Shown here one piece after another: positions 27,528-35,207 of a DNA stretch of 35,224 nt. The notes beneath the pieces were generated by a model. It ran no database searches. It was not told the origin of the DNA and was given only the letters and a program-made list of their open reading frames with translations. The translations under genes and the position numbers were made by a program. Source of the DNA: Bacteroidota bacterium (GTDB lineage Bacteria; Bacteroidota; Rhodothermia; Rhodothermales; UBA10348). Location of the stretch: the NCBI GenBank assembly GCA_027622005.1, contig JAQBZH010000023.1, forward strand, positions 1 to 35,224. The letters run 5' to 3'. How positions within the stretch are numbered: the stretch's first letter is position 1; every line of letters starts with the position of its first letter.

Positions 27528-28520
27528 ATGGAAACTTTACTGACCGCTACGGGCGTCATGTTGATTGGCGTCATCATGCTAAGCATGATCATTTTCATGT
27601 ACTTCATTCCCGTTGGACTATGGGTAACGGCCTATTTTTCAGGGGTCCGCGTAAAGCTTATTCGCGACTTGATGGGGATGAGATTGCGCAAAGTGCCGCC
27701 AGTCATCATTATTCGACCTTTGATCACGGCTCACAAGGCCGGAATTTTTGTAGATGCCCAGCAGTTGGAAGCTCATTATCTCGCGGGCGGTCAGGTCCAA
27801 AAAGTGGTCAATGCGCTGATTTCGGCAGATAAGGCCAATATCGACTTGACTTTCGAGCGGGCGACAGCTATCGATTTGGCAGGACGGGACGTTTTTTTAG
27901 CGGTACAGACGTCTGTAAATCCGAAAGTGATCGAAACTCCGGCCATATCAGCGGTTGCCAAAGATGGCATTCAGGTTCGCGCCATCGCGCGCGTAACGGT
28001 TCGAGCCAATATTGAGCGCTTGGTCGGTGGAGCCGGCGAAGAAACAATTATTGCACGGGTGGGCGAAGGAATTGTGTCGACCATTGGATCCTCCGAAACC
28101 CATAAAGCGGTGTTGGAAAACCCGGACTCCATTTCCAAAGTAGTCCTAGCCAAAGGACTCGATTCTGGAACCGCGTTCGAAATCCTTTCTATCGACATCG
28201 CCGATGTTGACGTTGGCGAAAATATCGGAGCCAAGTTGCAAACCGACCAAGCGGGAGCAGATTTAAAGATTGCCCAGGCCAAAGCTGAGGAGCGCAGAGC
28301 AGCGGCCGTTGCGCATGAGCAAGAAATGTTGGCCCTTGTTCAAGAACAGCGCGCAAGAGTAGTTGCCGCTGAAGCAGAAATCCCGTTGGCCATAGCGGAA
28401 GCTTTCAGGAGCGGGCGCCTTGGAATCATGGACTATTACACCATGCGAAATATCGAGGCGGATACTCACATGAGGCGGTCCATTGGAGGCGCTGAAGACC
28501 AAAGCCACAAAAACGAATAG
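27528..28520 (+). CDS. floA: Flotillin-like protein FloA
   Basis: SPFH-family scaffold of functional membrane microdomains, affecting membrane fluidity and protein complexes. 330 residues. The N-terminus is a membrane hairpin (about 5-36), followed by the family-specific [21 protein letters not shown] block and the SPFH/band-7 region ([20 protein letters not shown]). The C-terminal helix is Ala/Glu-rich (about 240-290, [16 protein letters not shown]), as in flotillins. In Bacillus the gene follows an nfeD gene; here it follows moaC by 2 bases and precedes an unknown 173-residue gene by 40. This is an unusual context. No Shine-Dalgarno sequence. Confidence 0.93.
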
Positions 28521-29113: not shown

Positions 29114-30400
29114 CTACTTGACCGGTAGATCTGTTTCCAACTGTTTAACGATTCGAACCAAATCGATCCGATGAGCGGAGGCCCGAAGAATGGTAAACGT
29201 AAATCCGTCCAAGTCATATTCGGCTCTGATTTCAGGTATTACTCCAAGTCTCTCTAGCAAATAACCGGCAATAGTCTCATAATCCCCTTCCGGCAGAACG
29301 ATATCCATTTTCTCCTGAAGCTCATCCATGCGAACGCGGCCACTCGAAACAACCGTAATGTCGTTGATTCTTCGAAGTGTATGGTCCTCGGTATCGAACT
29401 CATCTTGAATATCACCAAAAATCTCTTCCAACAGATCTTCACTGGTAACCAACCCGGCGGTGCCACCATATTCATCGATAACGATGGCAATCGAGGTTTT
29501 TTTGGCGAGAAACTCCTTTAGCAACTCCTTGGACAACTTCGTTTCCGGGACGAATGTAGCCGGACGAACAATTTCCGAAAGCGATGCGGGCTCGTGAAAC
29601 AGATCGTAGGCAAAAGCCATTCCCACAATATTGTCTATGTTTTCCCGGTAGATGGGAATTTTCGAATGTCCCGACTCTACAAACAATTGCCGCGCCTCAG
29701 AAACCGTCACACTTTCTTCCAGGGCTACAATTTCCGTCCGCGGACACATCGATTCTTTGACCAGAATCGTACTCATGGCAAAAACATTGGATAGAAGCGT
29801 GCTTTCTTCTTCGTCCAGATCCAATTCGCCGGTACGCTTGCTCTCTTCAATCATCAACTCAAAATCCCTGCGCATAAACTGAGAGAATGTTTTTGCGTCG
29901 GCTTTAAAAGCTTTCATCAGAAGCAAGGCTGACCACCTCGCTACCACGATCATCGGGAGCAATACGTAGTAGCTAATTCGTAGGGGAATGGCCAGTGCAA
30001 AAACGGCTCGATTGGGAATCTCTCTCAAAATCGACTTGGGAAGGATCTCACCTACGATCAAAACCACGAGAGACGCTATAATGGTCTGGGTAGTGAATGC
30101 CAACGCACTCGCTGCTCCTTGTTGAAGGCCGACCATATCGAGATAAAACGTTAGGAAGGGGCCTTCGAGGTAGAGGGCGATCAATGTCGAGTAGATTACC
30201 AACGCAAAATTGTTACCTACCAGAGTGGTTGTTAACAGGGTTGCCGGGTCCTCCAGAAACCGAGAGACTGTTTTACCGACGACTCCCCCTCGACGGGCGT
30301 ACACTTCCACTCGCAACCGATTGGCCGTCACAAACACAATTTCAGAACCCGAAAAGAATGCGCTGAGCACGAGAGTAACCAGGATTAACGAGAGTTCCAT
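29114..30400 (-). CDS. CNNM/CorC (hemolysin C) family membrane protein with CBS pair
   Basis: 428 residues. N-terminal DUF21/CNNM domain with about four membrane segments (1-about 180), starting with LSAFFSGSEIVFVTANRLR. It is followed by a CBS pair (about 205-335; PRTEIVALEESVTVSEAR and SIAIVIDEYGGTAGLVTSEDLLEEIFGDI are typical, in shorter pieces) and a C-terminal CorC_HlyC domain (about 345-428) with DGFTFTI. Members are Mg2+/Co2+-linked transporters or gliding/envelope proteins (GldE in Bacteroidota); a GldE-like role is possible but unproven. It is the last gene of a minus-strand series beginning at pspA. Confidence 0.9.
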   Translation of the reverse strand: MELSLILVTLVLSAFFSGSEIVFVTANRLRVEVYARRGGVVGKTVSRFLEDPATLLTTTLVGNNFALVIYSTLIALYLEGPFLTFYLDMVGLQQGAASALAFTTQTIIASLVVLIVGEILPKSILREIPNRAVFALAIPLRISYYVLLPMIVVARWSALLLMKAFKADAKTFSQFMRRDFELMIEESKRTGELDLDEEESTLLSNVFAMSTILVKESMCPRTEIVALEESVTVSEARQLFVESGHSKIPIYRENIDNIVGMAFAYDLFHEPASLSEIVRPATFVPETKLSKELLKEFLAKKTSIAIVIDEYGGTAGLVTSEDLLEEIFGDIQDEFDTEDHTLRRINDITVVSSGRVRMDELQEKMDIVLPEGDYETIAGYLLERLGVIPEIRAEYDLDGFTFTILRASAHRIDLVRIVKQLETDLPVK

Positions 30401-30464
30401 GGTTATTGTGTGGCTGGTGTCAGATCCGCGAAGCGTCTGGTCTGGATGTTATGCAAACGAATCA

Positions 30465-31247
30465 TCATCGCCCTTTAAATTCAGGTTTTCGCTTGTTCAA
30501 GAATGCGTCAACCCCTTCGACGAAGTCTTCCGTCGCACAGGCCCGGCCAAACAAGGCGGCCTCATCCCGGAGCCCGTCCGCGAGGGGAAGATCGGATGAT
30601 TGAAGGGCTTCCAACGTCAATTTAATAGCAATCGGTGCTTTTTCAACCATTAAAAGCATCAGTTTTCGAGCGCCATCCATTAATCCTTCGGGCTCAAACA
30701 CATGGTTTACCAGTCCGATGGCGAGTGCTCTATCGGCGTTCACCATGGCACCGGTCAAAACTATTTCAGTTGCCAGGCCTTTGCCGACTACTCTTGGTAG
30801 ACGCTGTGTGCCTCCATAACCCGGAATAATTCCCAAATTAACTTCAGGCTGGCCAAACAACGCGTTGGTGGATGCTACTCTTATATGGCAAGCAAGAGCG
30901 AGCTCGCTCCCTCCACCTAACGCAAATCCGTTTACCGCGGCGATGACAGGCTTACCTAGGTGCTCAATTTTACTAAAAACTTGTTGGCCGTAAGCAGCAA
31001 ATCGTTGCCCTTCCTCGGCACCCAACCCCTTAAAACGTGAAATGTCTGCACCCGCAACGAAGCTTTTAGGACCCGACCCCGTCAAGATGACGCCTTTCAC
31101 CGTTGGGTCCGAAGCGGCCTTGGAGAACCAATCATCCAATTCAGCAATTACTTCGGCGTTTAACGCATTCAGCTTATCTGGTCGATTAATGGTAACAATT
31201 GCGATCCCAGATGAATCGATTTCGACTAGAAGCGAGGAATAAGACAT
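30465..31247 (-). CDS. Enoyl-CoA hydratase/isomerase family protein
   Basis: 260-residue crotonase-fold enzyme that hydrates trans-2-enoyl-CoA in beta-oxidation or related acyl-CoA routes. The oxyanion-hole segment SFVAGADIS (63-70) and the NGFALGGGSELALAC block carry E115. The second catalytic Glu is E135 in FGQPEVNLGIIPGYGG. Both glutamates are present, which supports true hydratase activity rather than isomerase or decarboxylase. It lies between the coiled-coil membrane protein and the CorC-family gene, 64 bases from each, on the same strand. No functional link to them is evident. Confidence 0.92.
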   Translation of the reverse strand: MSYSSLLVEIDSSGIAIVTINRPDKLNALNAEVIAELDDWFSKAASDPTVKGVILTGSGPKSFVAGADISRFKGLGAEEGQRFAAYGQQVFSKIEHLGKPVIAAVNGFALGGGSELALACHIRVASTNALFGQPEVNLGIIPGYGGTQRLPRVVGKGLATEIVLTGAMVNADRALAIGLVNHVFEPEGLMDGARKLMLLMVEKAPIAIKLTLEALQSSDLPLADGLRDEAALFGRACATEDFVEGVDAFLNKRKPEFKGR

Positions 31248-31311
31248 AAAATATATTGGGAGGCCTTGGATGAACTGGGGCTCGTCAATGGCAAAATACG
31301 CTCTAGCCGGA

Positions 31312-32181
31312 TTATTCGCGCACTCTCGATCCCGTTGCCGACGATTCCTCGCTCACAGGCTCTTCAAACGAGTCCATTTCATTTACCATATCGGACGGGT
31401 TACCAAACACTTCTTCCAGCTCTTGAACCGATGCTTGTGTTTCTTCAACTTCAGTTAGCAACGTGTCCAATTGGAACGAAATCTCCTCGGGGTTGCGAAG
31501 CGTCAGTGACTGTTCGTGAATGTATTTGATGACATCTTCGATCGTCGCTAGCTGAGCCTCGATGATTTCCAGGTTTTCCTGGCCTTTTTTCGAGCGTTCC
31601 AGGCGTTGTTCCAGAATTCGAAGCCTGCGAGCCTTGATGGAACGAACTCGGGGCGAATCGTCTTCCATGTCGGTTCGGATTTCGTCAATGGCCCGAATCA
31701 CTTCTCGTTCCGTACCTGACGAAGCCGAGTATTCATAGCGTTCTTTTTGATAGAGTAGCTTGAGGTAGGACTCTAGGAGTCCGTCAATTTTCTTGAGATG
31801 CGAGTCGAGTAGGCCCTGCGAAGCATAGTTGAGCCGCTCATAGTTGCCCCGAATATCTTTTTCAGTTTTTCTCAACTTCGCATAACGCCGACGATGCGGG
31901 GCGGCCAACGTTTGAAAGAGTTCTTTTTGGGAAGGTGGTTTGGCGTGTTCGGCCGCCGCGCGTGAACGAATAGCCTTGCGAAAGCGCTCATTTCTAGGAA
32001 AGGAACCCAGAAACGCCAATTCAGCCCCAGCCGTAAATATCAAGGCCGCGTCAAAAGGCCATGTAGCGCCGGTCATGCTGACGCTAAAGGCCACCAACAT
32101 GGACACAATCAAAAAAGTCATATTCCACGGGTGTAGAAACGCTTCTTTGGTATAATTGATATCCAGGTCTCGATTTTTCAA
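31312..32181 (-). CDS. Membrane-anchored coiled-coil protein of the pspA gene cluster
   Basis: 289 residues from TTG 32181; I do not recognise a family. Two hydrophobic segments near the N-terminus (about 21-39 and 44-60) form a probable membrane hairpin. From about 80 to 250 the protein is charged and helical with heptad-like patterning (RRYAKLRKTEKDIRGNY, LRILEQRLERSKK, ENLEIIEAQLATIEDVIKY), suggesting a long cytoplasmic coiled coil. The C-terminal 40 residues are acidic and Ser-rich. It lies 77 bases downstream of the truncated PspA paralogue on the same strand, so it may anchor or recruit the PspA proteins at the membrane; this is inference from position and topology. Confidence 0.75.
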   Translation of the reverse strand: MKNRDLDINYTKEAFLHPWNMTFLIVSMLVAFSVSMTGATWPFDAALIFTAGAELAFLGSFPRNERFRKAIRSRAAAEHAKPPSQKELFQTLAAPHRRRYAKLRKTEKDIRGNYERLNYASQGLLDSHLKKIDGLLESYLKLLYQKERYEYSASSGTEREVIRAIDEIRTDMEDDSPRVRSIKARRLRILEQRLERSKKGQENLEIIEAQLATIEDVIKYIHEQSLTLRNPEEISFQLDTLLTEVEETQASVQELEEVFGNPSDMVNEMDSFEEPVSEESSATGSRVRE

Positions 32182-32258
32182 AAGTTATGCAGTAGAGCTA
32201 AAAGCTTTAAAGAGAAGAAAATGACACAGCCCGAGCTGTTGTTTAACGGATTTAGTCC

Positions 32259-32804
32259 TTATGGTTTCATCCGACCAATAGTCTTTTCTGGCAAATTCGA
32301 AGACGTGGTTGGTTTTGGTTTCTCTGTTAGAGGCGTTCGGCCACCAGAAGTCGCTTTCGAAGGGCCTTCTGATCCTTCTTTAGCGCGAGATTCTGATGAT
32401 ACCTCTTTGGATAGTAATTCCTCAATCGAAGCACCGCCTTCCACCTTCATCTGCCTGATGAGCGCCTGGGCTCGGGCTCGGCGAATGGCCTCTTCATTGA
32501 CCGCAAGTTCGGCTGCATCTTGAGCTTCTGACGGGCCGTCCAAAGCGTCCAACGAATCAGTCCCACCAATCGCATCCAGCGCCACTTCCATCCGGGCTTC
32601 AGATTGAAGGGTATCCATCTGTAGCCGGTCTACCATTTCGCGATGCTCGTCATACAAGCCCGTCATTCCAGAGGTCATACTATTTACCGCTTGGGTAATT
32701 TTTGCCTTCTGGACTGCTTGGCCGTGAAGCTTTTTTATTTCGCGAAGCTTTCTAAGATGATCCTTTTCGGCCTCTTTAAACCTCTGATATTCTTCAGGAG
32801 TCAT
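32259..32804 (-). CDS. Truncated PspA/IM30 paralogue (C-terminal half only)
   Basis: 181 residues. Residues about 9-123 line up with residues about 125-222 of the neighbouring PspA: DRLQMDTLQSEARMEVALDA against TRLQEQTARNEARMEMALDS, and NEEAIRRARAQALIRQMKVE against EEDAQKIRAAEVVKQFKLEM. The N-terminal membrane-binding helix and the long first coiled-coil arm of PspA are absent. A Ser/Lys/Pro-rich linker (about 130-170) leads to a final KTIGRMKP, matching the KTIGKQRTQN tail of PspA. It starts 9 bases after the pspA stop, with an AGGAAG site in front. It is probably a duplicated, trimmed ESCRT-III-like subunit that modulates PspA assembly; function is inferred. Confidence 0.8.
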   Translation of the reverse strand: MTPEEYQRFKEAEKDHLRKLREIKKLHGQAVQKAKITQAVNSMTSGMTGLYDEHREMVDRLQMDTLQSEARMEVALDAIGGTDSLDALDGPSEAQDAAELAVNEEAIRRARAQALIRQMKVEGGASIEELLSKEVSSESRAKEGSEGPSKATSGGRTPLTEKPKPTTSSNLPEKTIGRMKP

Positions 32805-32813
32805 GAATACTTC

Positions 32814-33581
32814 CTAATTCTGTGTGCGCTGTTTGCCTATCGTTTTACCTGACGATTCGGTTTCGTGGTCAGAAAGATCCATTTGAGGCTCTTCTTTTGA
32901 ACCACCAGAGTCCCCAACGCCCATTTCAAGTTTGAATTGCTTGACCACTTCGGCTGCTCGAATCTTCTGGGCATCCTCTTCGATCTGCAATGCTTCAGTA
33001 TCGACCGAATCTAATGCCATTTCCATTCTGGCTTCGTTTCTAGCCGTTTGTTCTTGCAAACGAGTGATCATTTCGTCGTGGGTCTGATCAATTCCGCCCA
33101 CTTCGAATGATTCAAGCGTATCGGCCACTTTCGCCTGCCATTTGGCCCGCTCGTGCGCGCGCAAAGAATCCTTGGCTTCCGCTATCTTGCGCTCTTTTTC
33201 GCGCATAAACGCTTTCTTTACCTGAAGCGCTTTATCGTATGCAGCCGAGGCGTATTTGAGCTGGTCCTTGGTGGAAGCCAAATTGTCGCGGCCCGACTCC
33301 AAACGCATAGCGTAGCGCTCGGCGATATCGTCACGATTGGCCTGAATACCAGCTCTGATTTTAGCCGTCATGTCGGCTAATTCGATCTCGTACTTGCGGA
33401 CTTCCTTTTGGAGCAACATTACGTTGGCTTTTACCGCTGCAATGTTCTCATTCATTTTCGGGACTTGATCATTCAAATCTCGAATATTTTGCTCTAAAAT
33501 CAGCTTGGGATCTTCGAGTGCAGAGATTGCACCGCCAAAAACTGACTTAACAAATCGTTTGAATCGTGACCACATGGACAT
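32814..33581 (-). CDS. pspA: Phage shock protein A / IM30 family membrane-remodelling protein
   Basis: 255-residue ESCRT-III-superfamily protein that binds stressed membranes and forms oligomeric scaffolds. The amphipathic N-terminal helix (about 1-22, MWSRFKRFVKSVFGG) is followed by EDPKLILEQNIRDLNDQV, a signature of PspA/Vipp1. A long helical hairpin (about 25-150) follows, then the later helices (about 150-222, ending KQFKLEMGV). A variable acidic linker and a C-terminal KTIG tail complete it. No pspF, pspB or pspC is nearby; instead two novel-looking genes follow on the same strand. The 158-base gap upstream should hold the promoter; I saw no sigma-54 -24/-12 element in it. Confidence 0.95.
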   Translation of the reverse strand: MSMWSRFKRFVKSVFGGAISALEDPKLILEQNIRDLNDQVPKMNENIAAVKANVMLLQKEVRKYEIELADMTAKIRAGIQANRDDIAERYAMRLESGRDNLASTKDQLKYASAAYDKALQVKKAFMREKERKIAEAKDSLRAHERAKWQAKVADTLESFEVGGIDQTHDEMITRLQEQTARNEARMEMALDSVDTEALQIEEDAQKIRAAEVVKQFKLEMGVGDSGGSKEEPQMDLSDHETESSGKTIGKQRTQN

Positions 33582-33739
33582 GTCTATCTAAAGTATTTTG
33601 TTAACGGGAGTCGTTATCCCTTCTTTGAATATAATGATGTTGTTGGATCAATCATCTAAATACAGTCAAATAGGACACAAAACAGACTCACAAAGGCTAA
33701 TTTTTGCCACTTTGTTGGGCTTCCTACGAAAGGTATGCC

Positions 33740-35083
33740 CTATGGATTCAACCAGGCTCCATTTGAATAGCGATCTTTTACCCTCGAAATTGGAATTTCA
33801 CACTCTTCTCCAAACTCAAAGGCCGTAGAAAGATACTCCTCTGTCTCCTCCAAACGCTCGTTTTCGGACGCTTGAATACGTGCCAACTTTTCTCCCTTAG
33901 TAACAGTGTGACCGGCCGAGACATATAACGTGATTCCGGCAATCGGGTCCACCACATCGTCTTTTTGCTTTCGTCCTGCGCCGAGATCTACTGCGGCTCG
34001 ACCCACCGTTTTAGCGTCGATTCTAGTCACCATCCCGTCAGAGGGTGCGGTTATAAACGCTTCGTTTCGACCAAGATCACGCTCGGTAGGACGTCGGATA
34101 CTATCGAGGGATCCTCCTTGTCTTTCAACTAGCTGTTCAAATTTTTCCCATGCCCGACCCGATGTTATCGCGTTCTCTGCCATCGAGAGCCCCTCATCGA
34201 GGGAATCGACCGCTCCGCCAGCCATAAGCATTTCGGATGCCAACGCGTAGGTCACATCCATGACGTCTTCTGGTCCATTTCCGTGTAAACAAGCAATCGA
34301 TTCTACAATCTCAGGCCAATTACCCACGCCAAAACCCAATGGTTGGTCCATATCCGTTAAAAGTGCCACCGTATCCGTCCCAAACCGTTCCGCCAAATTG
34401 GTAAGTGTTTCGGCCAGTTTTCGGGCGTCGCTTTCTTCCGACATAAAGGCTCCAGAACCAAACTTTACGTCTAAAACGAGGTTGTTGATACCCTCTGCTA
34501 GCTTCTTAGAAAGGATAGAGGCTGCAATGAACGGAATAAACTCAACCGTACCCGTCACATCTCGTAGGGCATACAGTTTTTTGTCGGCTGGAGCAATTTC
34601 CGCTGTTTGACCGATCATGACAACTCCAATCTCTTTCAATTGGCGTCTGTAATTTTCGATGTTCATCTGGGTTGAAAAACCAGGGATTGACTCCAGCTTA
34701 TCCAGGGTCCCACCCGTGTGCCCGAGACCTCGACCTGAAATCATGGGAATTGGAACCCCACAACTAGCCACAAGGGGAGCCAAAATGATCGACGTTTTGT
34801 CTCCGACGCCCCCGGTCGAATGCTTATCTACTTTGCGCCCTTGAACGTCCGAATGATCGATTACCTGTCCGGAATGCATCATGGAGTAGGTGAGCGCCAT
34901 CATTTCGTCCTCATTCATTCCATTCAGAAAGGAAGCCATGAGAAGCGCCGAGGCTTGATAGTCTGGAATTTGCCCCGAGGTATAGCCCTTTACGAATCCG
35001 GCAATTTCATCCGCGCTGAGCACGCCCTTATCCCGCTTACGCAGAATGAGGTCGACGACGTTAATGGATTTTGTAGATGACAT
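33740..35083 (-). CDS. deoA: Thymidine/pyrimidine-nucleoside phosphorylase
   Basis: Phosphorolyses thymidine (and perhaps uridine/deoxyuridine) to base and (deoxy)ribose-1-phosphate for nucleoside salvage. 447 residues from ATG 35083; an in-frame GTG at 35113 would add ten residues with no family resemblance. Family hallmarks are VDLILRKRDKG at the start, KVDKHSTGGVGDKTS (phosphate and nucleoside binding), SGRGLGHTGGTLDKLE (the family signature), and DVKFGSGAFM. The C-terminal alpha/beta domain has VGRAAVDLGAGR and SAGHTVTKGEKLA. The thymidine versus general pyrimidine specificity cannot be read with certainty. It precedes pspA on the same strand by 158 bases. Confidence 0.93.
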   Translation of the reverse strand: MSSTKSINVVDLILRKRDKGVLSADEIAGFVKGYTSGQIPDYQASALLMASFLNGMNEDEMMALTYSMMHSGQVIDHSDVQGRKVDKHSTGGVGDKTSIILAPLVASCGVPIPMISGRGLGHTGGTLDKLESIPGFSTQMNIENYRRQLKEIGVVMIGQTAEIAPADKKLYALRDVTGTVEFIPFIAASILSKKLAEGINNLVLDVKFGSGAFMSEESDARKLAETLTNLAERFGTDTVALLTDMDQPLGFGVGNWPEIVESIACLHGNGPEDVMDVTYALASEMLMAGGAVDSLDEGLSMAENAITSGRAWEKFEQLVERQGGSLDSIRRPTERDLGRNEAFITAPSDGMVTRIDAKTVGRAAVDLGAGRKQKDDVVDPIAGITLYVSAGHTVTKGEKLARIQASENERLEETEEYLSTAFEFGEECEIPISRVKDRYSNGAWLNP

Positions 35084-35207
35084 GCTTTTGATCTTGAAAA
35101 ACGGGCCGCACACTTACCACGCCGAATCCAGCCGTTTGAAGAGTCTTTTGCGCTATGGCGCCAGTAAAATACGAAGGGCGCGTTCCATTTCTATAAAAAA
35201 GTAGGGC

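Follow-up and report, generated by a model that had tools for sequence, protein, structure and literature searches.

The analysed stretch of 35,224 nucleotides (the window) carries three adjacent genes encoding a 255-aa PspA, a 181-aa paralogue that matches its C-terminal part (half-PspA) and a 289-aa protein with a predicted membrane hairpin (CC), and comparison with relatives indicates that this trio is a conserved, lineage-specific unit. We propose, with a probability of about 0.42, a lineage-specific Psp module in which PspA and half-PspA would dock on CC, or on a common partner, via their C-terminal KTIG tails, half-PspA tuning the capture of PspA. New here are the class-wide distribution of the trio, the architecture of half-PspA and CC, and the common KTIG tail with its pattern of natural losses. 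The features of the locus are:

29114-30400, minus strand: CorC-type CBS-domain gene (named by sequence resemblance)
30465-31247, minus strand: enoyl-CoA hydratase gene (named by sequence resemblance)
31312-32181, minus strand: CC protein gene, 289 aa, TTG start (open reading frame; no named family)
32259-32804, minus strand: half-PspA gene, 181 aa, ATG start (open reading frame and homology to the C-terminal part of PspA)
32262-32288, minus strand: codons for the half-PspA C-terminal tail EKTIGRMKP
32814-33581, minus strand: pspA, 255 aa, ATG start (open reading frame and PF04012 match)
32817-32849, minus strand: codons for the PspA C-terminal tail GKTIGKQRTQN
33582-33739, minus strand: intergenic region upstream of pspA, after deoA; putative promoter region with a TCATTATATT-like box
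33740-35113, minus strand: deoA (thymidine-phosphorylase-type; named by sequence resemblance)

The open reading frame coordinates agreed with the sequence-only reading of this DNA, which had placed the three genes on the same (minus) strand with intergenic gaps of 9 nt (pspA/half-PspA) and 77 nt (half-PspA/CC). Comparison with relatives showed that the TCATTATATT-like box 5' of pspA is conserved within the genus and, in part, within the family. Sigma-70 promoter sites around the trio showed no excess over shuffled sequences, and no sigma-54 signature was seen by eye upstream of pspA (33582-33739). A terminator-like stem was located between the half-PspA and CC genes at 32239-32226; because it is absent from the nearest relatives, we did not take it to split the operon. 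The window also holds a FloA/flotillin-like gene (27528-28520, plus strand), about 3 kb away and on the strand opposite to the trio; of 91 long related loci, 36 contain it as well, with 73-95% identity. Links between flotillins and PspA are known in other bacteria.

The 255-aa protein matched PF04012 at 60.9 bits (cut-off 33.9), which places it in the PspA/IM30 family, and its profile residues 1-204 were collinear with residues 1-204 of the solved Vipp1 sll0617 over helices alpha-0 to alpha-5 (E = 1.1e-7). It had been called canonical PspA, a term that proved too strong: the protein scored 18.3 bits against the PspA equivalog model TIGR02977, under the cut-off of 242.95, and its PF04012 score lies below those of most other Bacteroidota PspAs listed (about 110-187 bits), the Rhodothermia PspAs scoring about 55-79 bits. 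These results indicate that the 255-aa protein is a full-length but divergent member of the PspA/Vipp1 (bacterial ESCRT-III-like) family. It is the single PF04012 match in the source genome, and the one match in genome G038 is likewise the PspA of the trio. In a Salinibacter-family genome (G069, locus L231), a second, canonical PspA (172 bits) is encoded apart from the trio; this protein has no KTIG tail.

Pairwise BLASTP aligned half-PspA with residues 131-221 of PspA (E = 8e-11), and the two profiles aligned over 114 columns, including the C-terminal tail, with a probability of 99.2% (E = 1.1e-19). Starting at PspA residue 131, half-PspA corresponds to distal alpha-3, to alpha-4, to alpha-5 and to the tail, and in the alignment it is without alpha-0 and without the alpha-1/alpha-2 hairpin. 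Its N-terminus is charged, with a mean hydrophobicity of -0.15 compared to +0.52 in the amphipathic N-terminal helix of PspA. In the AlphaFold2 model of half-PspA, residues 3-86 form a long helix and residues 93-132 another, and the tail is modelled with low confidence. The earlier statement that this protein matches only the C-terminal part of PspA and lacks the membrane-binding helix was therefore upheld by BLASTP, profile alignment and N-terminal hydrophobicity, the match being significant in a profile search, and the results indicate that half-PspA is a true PspA paralogue. A Pfam search of the 181-aa protein gave no match; at E ≤ 0.01, PF04012 matched none of 64 half-family members, and Snf7 (PF03357) was not among the matches listed for the half or CC families. 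A fold search with the half-PspA model found no chain. No named family could be assigned to half-PspA or CC, for which Pfam, NCBIfam, PADLOC and PDB profiles gave weak coiled-coil matches only. When a tree was built from the region that PspA and half-PspA have in common, the halves sampled stood apart from all sampled Rhodothermia PspAs, with a low support of 0.19 for the split, and canonical PspAs from outside Rhodothermia were not cleanly placed. This tree is compatible with, and no proof of, a single old duplication behind half-PspA.

For CC, AlphaFold2 modelled two TM-hairpin helices (17-34 and 39-62) followed by a helical bundle (mean pLDDT 80.5, pTM 0.61), and a hydrophobic N-terminus followed by charged helices was present in 67 of 67 aligned rows of the family, in agreement with the membrane hairpin and charged helices noted in the sequence-only reading. 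The model predicts that CC is anchored in the membrane by its N-terminal two-TM hairpin, with the helical bundle in the cytosol; the C-terminus is a disordered acidic tail. Conserved residues cluster around 'QLETIEDVVKYIHEQSLTLxNPEEITFQLDTLL', which forms the turn between the last two long helices. Searches of Pfam and NCBIfam, made with PspC, LiaF/Toastrack and other named Psp partners in view, returned only scattered coiled-coil matches below the cut-offs, no SPFH domain was matched, and together with the PDB profile searches this leaves CC outside named families. By sequence, CC does not qualify as a third paralogue of PspA: the hhalign probability was <2% against both PspA and half-PspA. 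Comparison of the CC bundle with F-BAR/BAR chains gave Z values of 8.6-11.1, under the informative level for helical bundles, and Foldseek E values of at least 0.13; a BAR-like fold is not claimed for CC, as Z of about 11 or less is too low for helical bundles. In one lineage the CC gene is in tandem duplicate (L106:3028-4799 and L170:3028-4799), the second copy being 27-29% identical to the window CC, and in one single-contig genome (L211, G157:C1:2078000-2088000) it is in two frames of 100 and 197 aa, either a pseudogene or a sequencing error.

The gene order PspA-half-CC was found in 107 of 107 distinct half-bearing loci from Rhodothermales and Balneolales, so the order reported for the window is shared by its relatives. 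PspA adjoins CC in 115 distinct loci, and in 29 of the 107 loci with a half the half-PspA gene shares 1 or 4 nt with the CC gene. In an even sample of the phylum Bacteroidota, CC was present in 96 of 98 Rhodothermia genomes compared to 1 of 296 others, PspA (PF04012) was present in 97 of the 98, and half-PspA was present in 90 of the 98 and in 0 of the 296, genomes with two matches being scored as PspA plus half. Of 100 relatives drawn from 15 families of one order, 99 gave a match for PspA, 99 for CC and 97 for half-PspA, the last figure including some matches to PspA itself, so that the loci give the better count. A scan of the genome collection yielded 80 named loci, including Rhodothermus, Salinibacter, Salinivenus, Longimonas and Balneola, and the trio is present in the named isolates Salinibacter altiplanensis (L157), Roseithermus sacchariphilus and Longimonas halophila. 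The system had been described as Bacteroidota/Rhodothermota-specific; its lineage specificity held, and within the phylum sample its scope narrowed from the phylum Bacteroidota to near-confinement to the class Rhodothermia. The putative receptor CC appears essentially limited to this class. One genome of another class (G350, L202:5752-6756) encodes a distant homologue of CC whose TM hairpin is similar and whose gene does not adjoin the PspA of that genome; no second homologue was found in 98 genomes of that class, and the CC family may be wider than Rhodothermia.

At their C-termini, PspA and half-PspA carry the same short tail, KTIG-R/K, after a variable linker. A [KR][ST][ILMV]G tail was present on PspA and/or half-PspA in 116 of 117 distinct CC-bearing loci (both proteins, 96; half-PspA only, 12; PspA only, 8; neither, 1). 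The exception, L182, has neither a half nor a tail, and among the 8 loci with the tail on PspA only, 7 are without half-PspA and the remaining one has KTFG in the half. Half-PspA is missing, with PspA and CC adjacent, in families f14 (L076, L077, L099, L138, L141, L142 and L144) and f16 (L205 and L206) as well as in L182; the PspAs of f14 and f16 retain the KTIG tail without half-PspA, and in several lineages, for example Rubricoccaceae, the tail was lost on PspA and retained on half-PspA. The tail was found in 0 of 11 PspAs without an adjacent CC, including the PspA of G380 and the second PspA of G069, these 11 being mostly canonical proteins from other classes and not independent of phylogeny. 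In the Balneolaceae genome G380, PspA lies between the usual flanking genes and half-PspA, CC and the KTIG tail are all missing, which is the single clear case of joint loss of CC and tail. PspA, half-PspA and CC were all undetected, a joint loss, in G434 (Balneola family, 2.4 Mb, 96% complete). In nearly all loci with CC, the tail has persisted on PspA, on half-PspA or on both, which makes CC the natural candidate for the tail partner; we infer that KTIG serves for docking to a unit-specific partner, most likely CC. The tail common to PspA and half-PspA also lends indirect support to a membrane-receptor role of CC.

In the proposed module, PspA would polymerise on the inner membrane via its ESCRT-III-like core, as its homology suggests, and CC, integral to the membrane by its hairpin, would offer its cytosolic helical bundle as dock or anchor. 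To bind CC, or a common partner, PspA and half-PspA would use their C-terminal KTIG-R/K tails, which are flexible and nearly identical, in a manner likened to ESCRT-III tails offering MIM motifs to a helical partner. Half-PspA, with the tail and part of the C-terminal helices, probably cannot polymerise by itself because it has no hairpin, and it would tune the number of PspA subunits caught by the membrane dock, as adaptor or competitor. We infer all physical interactions among PspA, half-PspA and CC, and an envelope-stress role of the trio is suggested by analogy. A narrower version, in which polymer-forming PspA and a polymer-incompetent PspA fragment would compete, through the common C-terminal motif, for a membrane-integral helical (possibly BAR-like) receptor, as a bacterial counterpart of ESCRT-III tail-motif docking, is rather unlikely.

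Half-PspA might alternatively act as an inhibitor or sensor that sits on the CC dock while the cell is unstressed and is displaced by PspA on stress, in a role akin to the recruitment switches of other Psp membrane partners. The tail common to both proteins, the one conserved membrane partner and the tandem genes in one apparent operon fit such a role, but the unit holds no regulator gene and the half is dispensable in some lineages, and we consider this role unlikely.

In ESCRT-III polymers (Vipp1, CHMP1B), alpha-5 packs on the hairpin of the neighbouring subunit (PMC8281802), and half-PspA might accordingly cap or nucleate PspA polymers by offering alpha-4/alpha-5 to the hairpin of the terminal subunit and thereby setting polymer length, the tail being secondary. 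Half-PspA aligns to alpha-4/alpha-5 of PspA and the window half-PspA retains an alpha-5-like segment, which makes capping possible. However, a simple pattern search did not find the alpha-5 motif in 18 of 64 halves, 13 of them <135 aa, and short halves retain the KTIG tail even though many of them have no alpha-5-like region; families f14 and f16 do without the half and yet keep PspA and CC. Capping or nucleation is weakened by these short halves and by f14 and f16, and is distinctly unlikely. The conserved minimum of half-PspA appears to be one helix plus the tail, which favours the adaptor or competitor role proposed above over an end-cap.

Alternatively, a general factor unrelated to CC, for example a protease adaptor, could read the KTIG tail as a signal for turnover or localisation, since a degron has much the same look: a conserved peptide of a few residues at the C-terminus, preceded by a disordered linker. 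More clients would then be expected, whereas a DNA-level search of three whole genomes found no credible KTIG-ended protein beyond PspA and half-PspA, and the tail tracks the presence of CC. Of 1059 unrelated long open reading frames from the same loci, 1.6% had the relaxed motif within their last 30 residues, and not one had the strict form K[ST][IL]G[RK]. We regard a general-factor signal as quite improbable.

The six-gene block deoA-PspA-half-CC-enoyl-CoA hydratase-CorC (window 29114-35113) is kept from Rhodothermales to Balneolales, and in 71 well-covered loci synteny was retained by deoA in 64, enoyl-CoA hydratase in 45 and CorC in 57. Because this wider block is also old, adjacency within the trio is weaker evidence than it appears and is partly background synteny; the gene overlaps, losses and tail weigh more than adjacency as evidence of a link. 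That PspA-CC adjacency is nothing but inherited block synteny is very improbable, for all that the wider block is conserved, given that PspA and CC are linked in 71 of 71 loci, 7 to 26 of which lack one or another of the flanking genes, that start/stop overlaps are common (half/CC, 29 loci) and that PspA and CC are both missing in G434.

The trio bears on the question of how, outside proteobacteria, firmicutes and actinobacteria, PspA/Vipp1 polymers come to be positioned at membranes and to leave them. It forms a compact module that nearly all members of one class possess, natural deletions have removed either half-PspA or half-PspA together with CC, and its KTIG tail motif leads to one clear binding prediction. 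Half-PspA is a minimal paralogue and a ready-made tool for tests of polymer regulation. Culturable hosts exist, since Salinibacter altiplanensis, Roseithermus sacchariphilus and Longimonas halophila carry the trio.

The sequence-only reading knew of no described locus of this kind, a view that did not survive comparison with the literature. The available text of Ravi et al. 2024 (mSystems, PMC11237479) describes conserved neighbourhoods that bring PspA and Snf7 together, to which those of Bacteroidetes (CBH24266.1) add, as third gene, one for a coiled-coil protein reminiscent of PspA coiled coils. CBH24266.1 is very likely from the Salinibacter ruber M8 genome, because CBH24765 and CBH24767 belong to Salinibacter ruber M8 (PMC3989265). 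The trio locus is thus very probably already on record, in one sentence, and uncharacterised in the literature found. The main text of Popp et al. 2022 (PMC9239133) makes no mention of Bacteroidetes, Salinibacter or Rhodothermus, and a literature search on Salinibacter and phage shock protein found nothing relevant.

The CBH24266.1 neighbourhood resembles the trio in that PspA is accompanied by another gene of PspA/Snf7 type and by one for a coiled-coil protein, whereas the main text of PMC11237479 holds nothing on the missing hairpin, the TM hairpin of CC, the common tail, the class-wide conservation or the losses. Within the PspA/Vipp1/LiaH family, the PspA of the locus is a divergent full-length member, with a lower PF04012 score than most other Bacteroidota PspAs, and it carries the KTIG tail, which is on none of the canonical ones checked. 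The mycobacterial PspA-PspM (Rv2743c) arrangement is similar in that a PspA gene is followed by the gene of a two-TM partner, but there is no ClgR or PspN at the trio, and PspM is reported only in Actinobacteria in the available text of PMC11237479. The SPFH/flotillin-PspA linkers of Bacillus subtilis (PMC8581546) likewise have a membrane partner tying PspA to the membrane, although CC has no SPFH match and the flotillin-like gene lies off the unit on the other strand. The trio has no Vps4-type ATPase and the KTIG sequence is unrelated to MIM, yet the ESCRT-III MIM/Vps4 MIT system offers an analogy in its short C-terminal linear motif, carried on flexible tails and common to paralogues.
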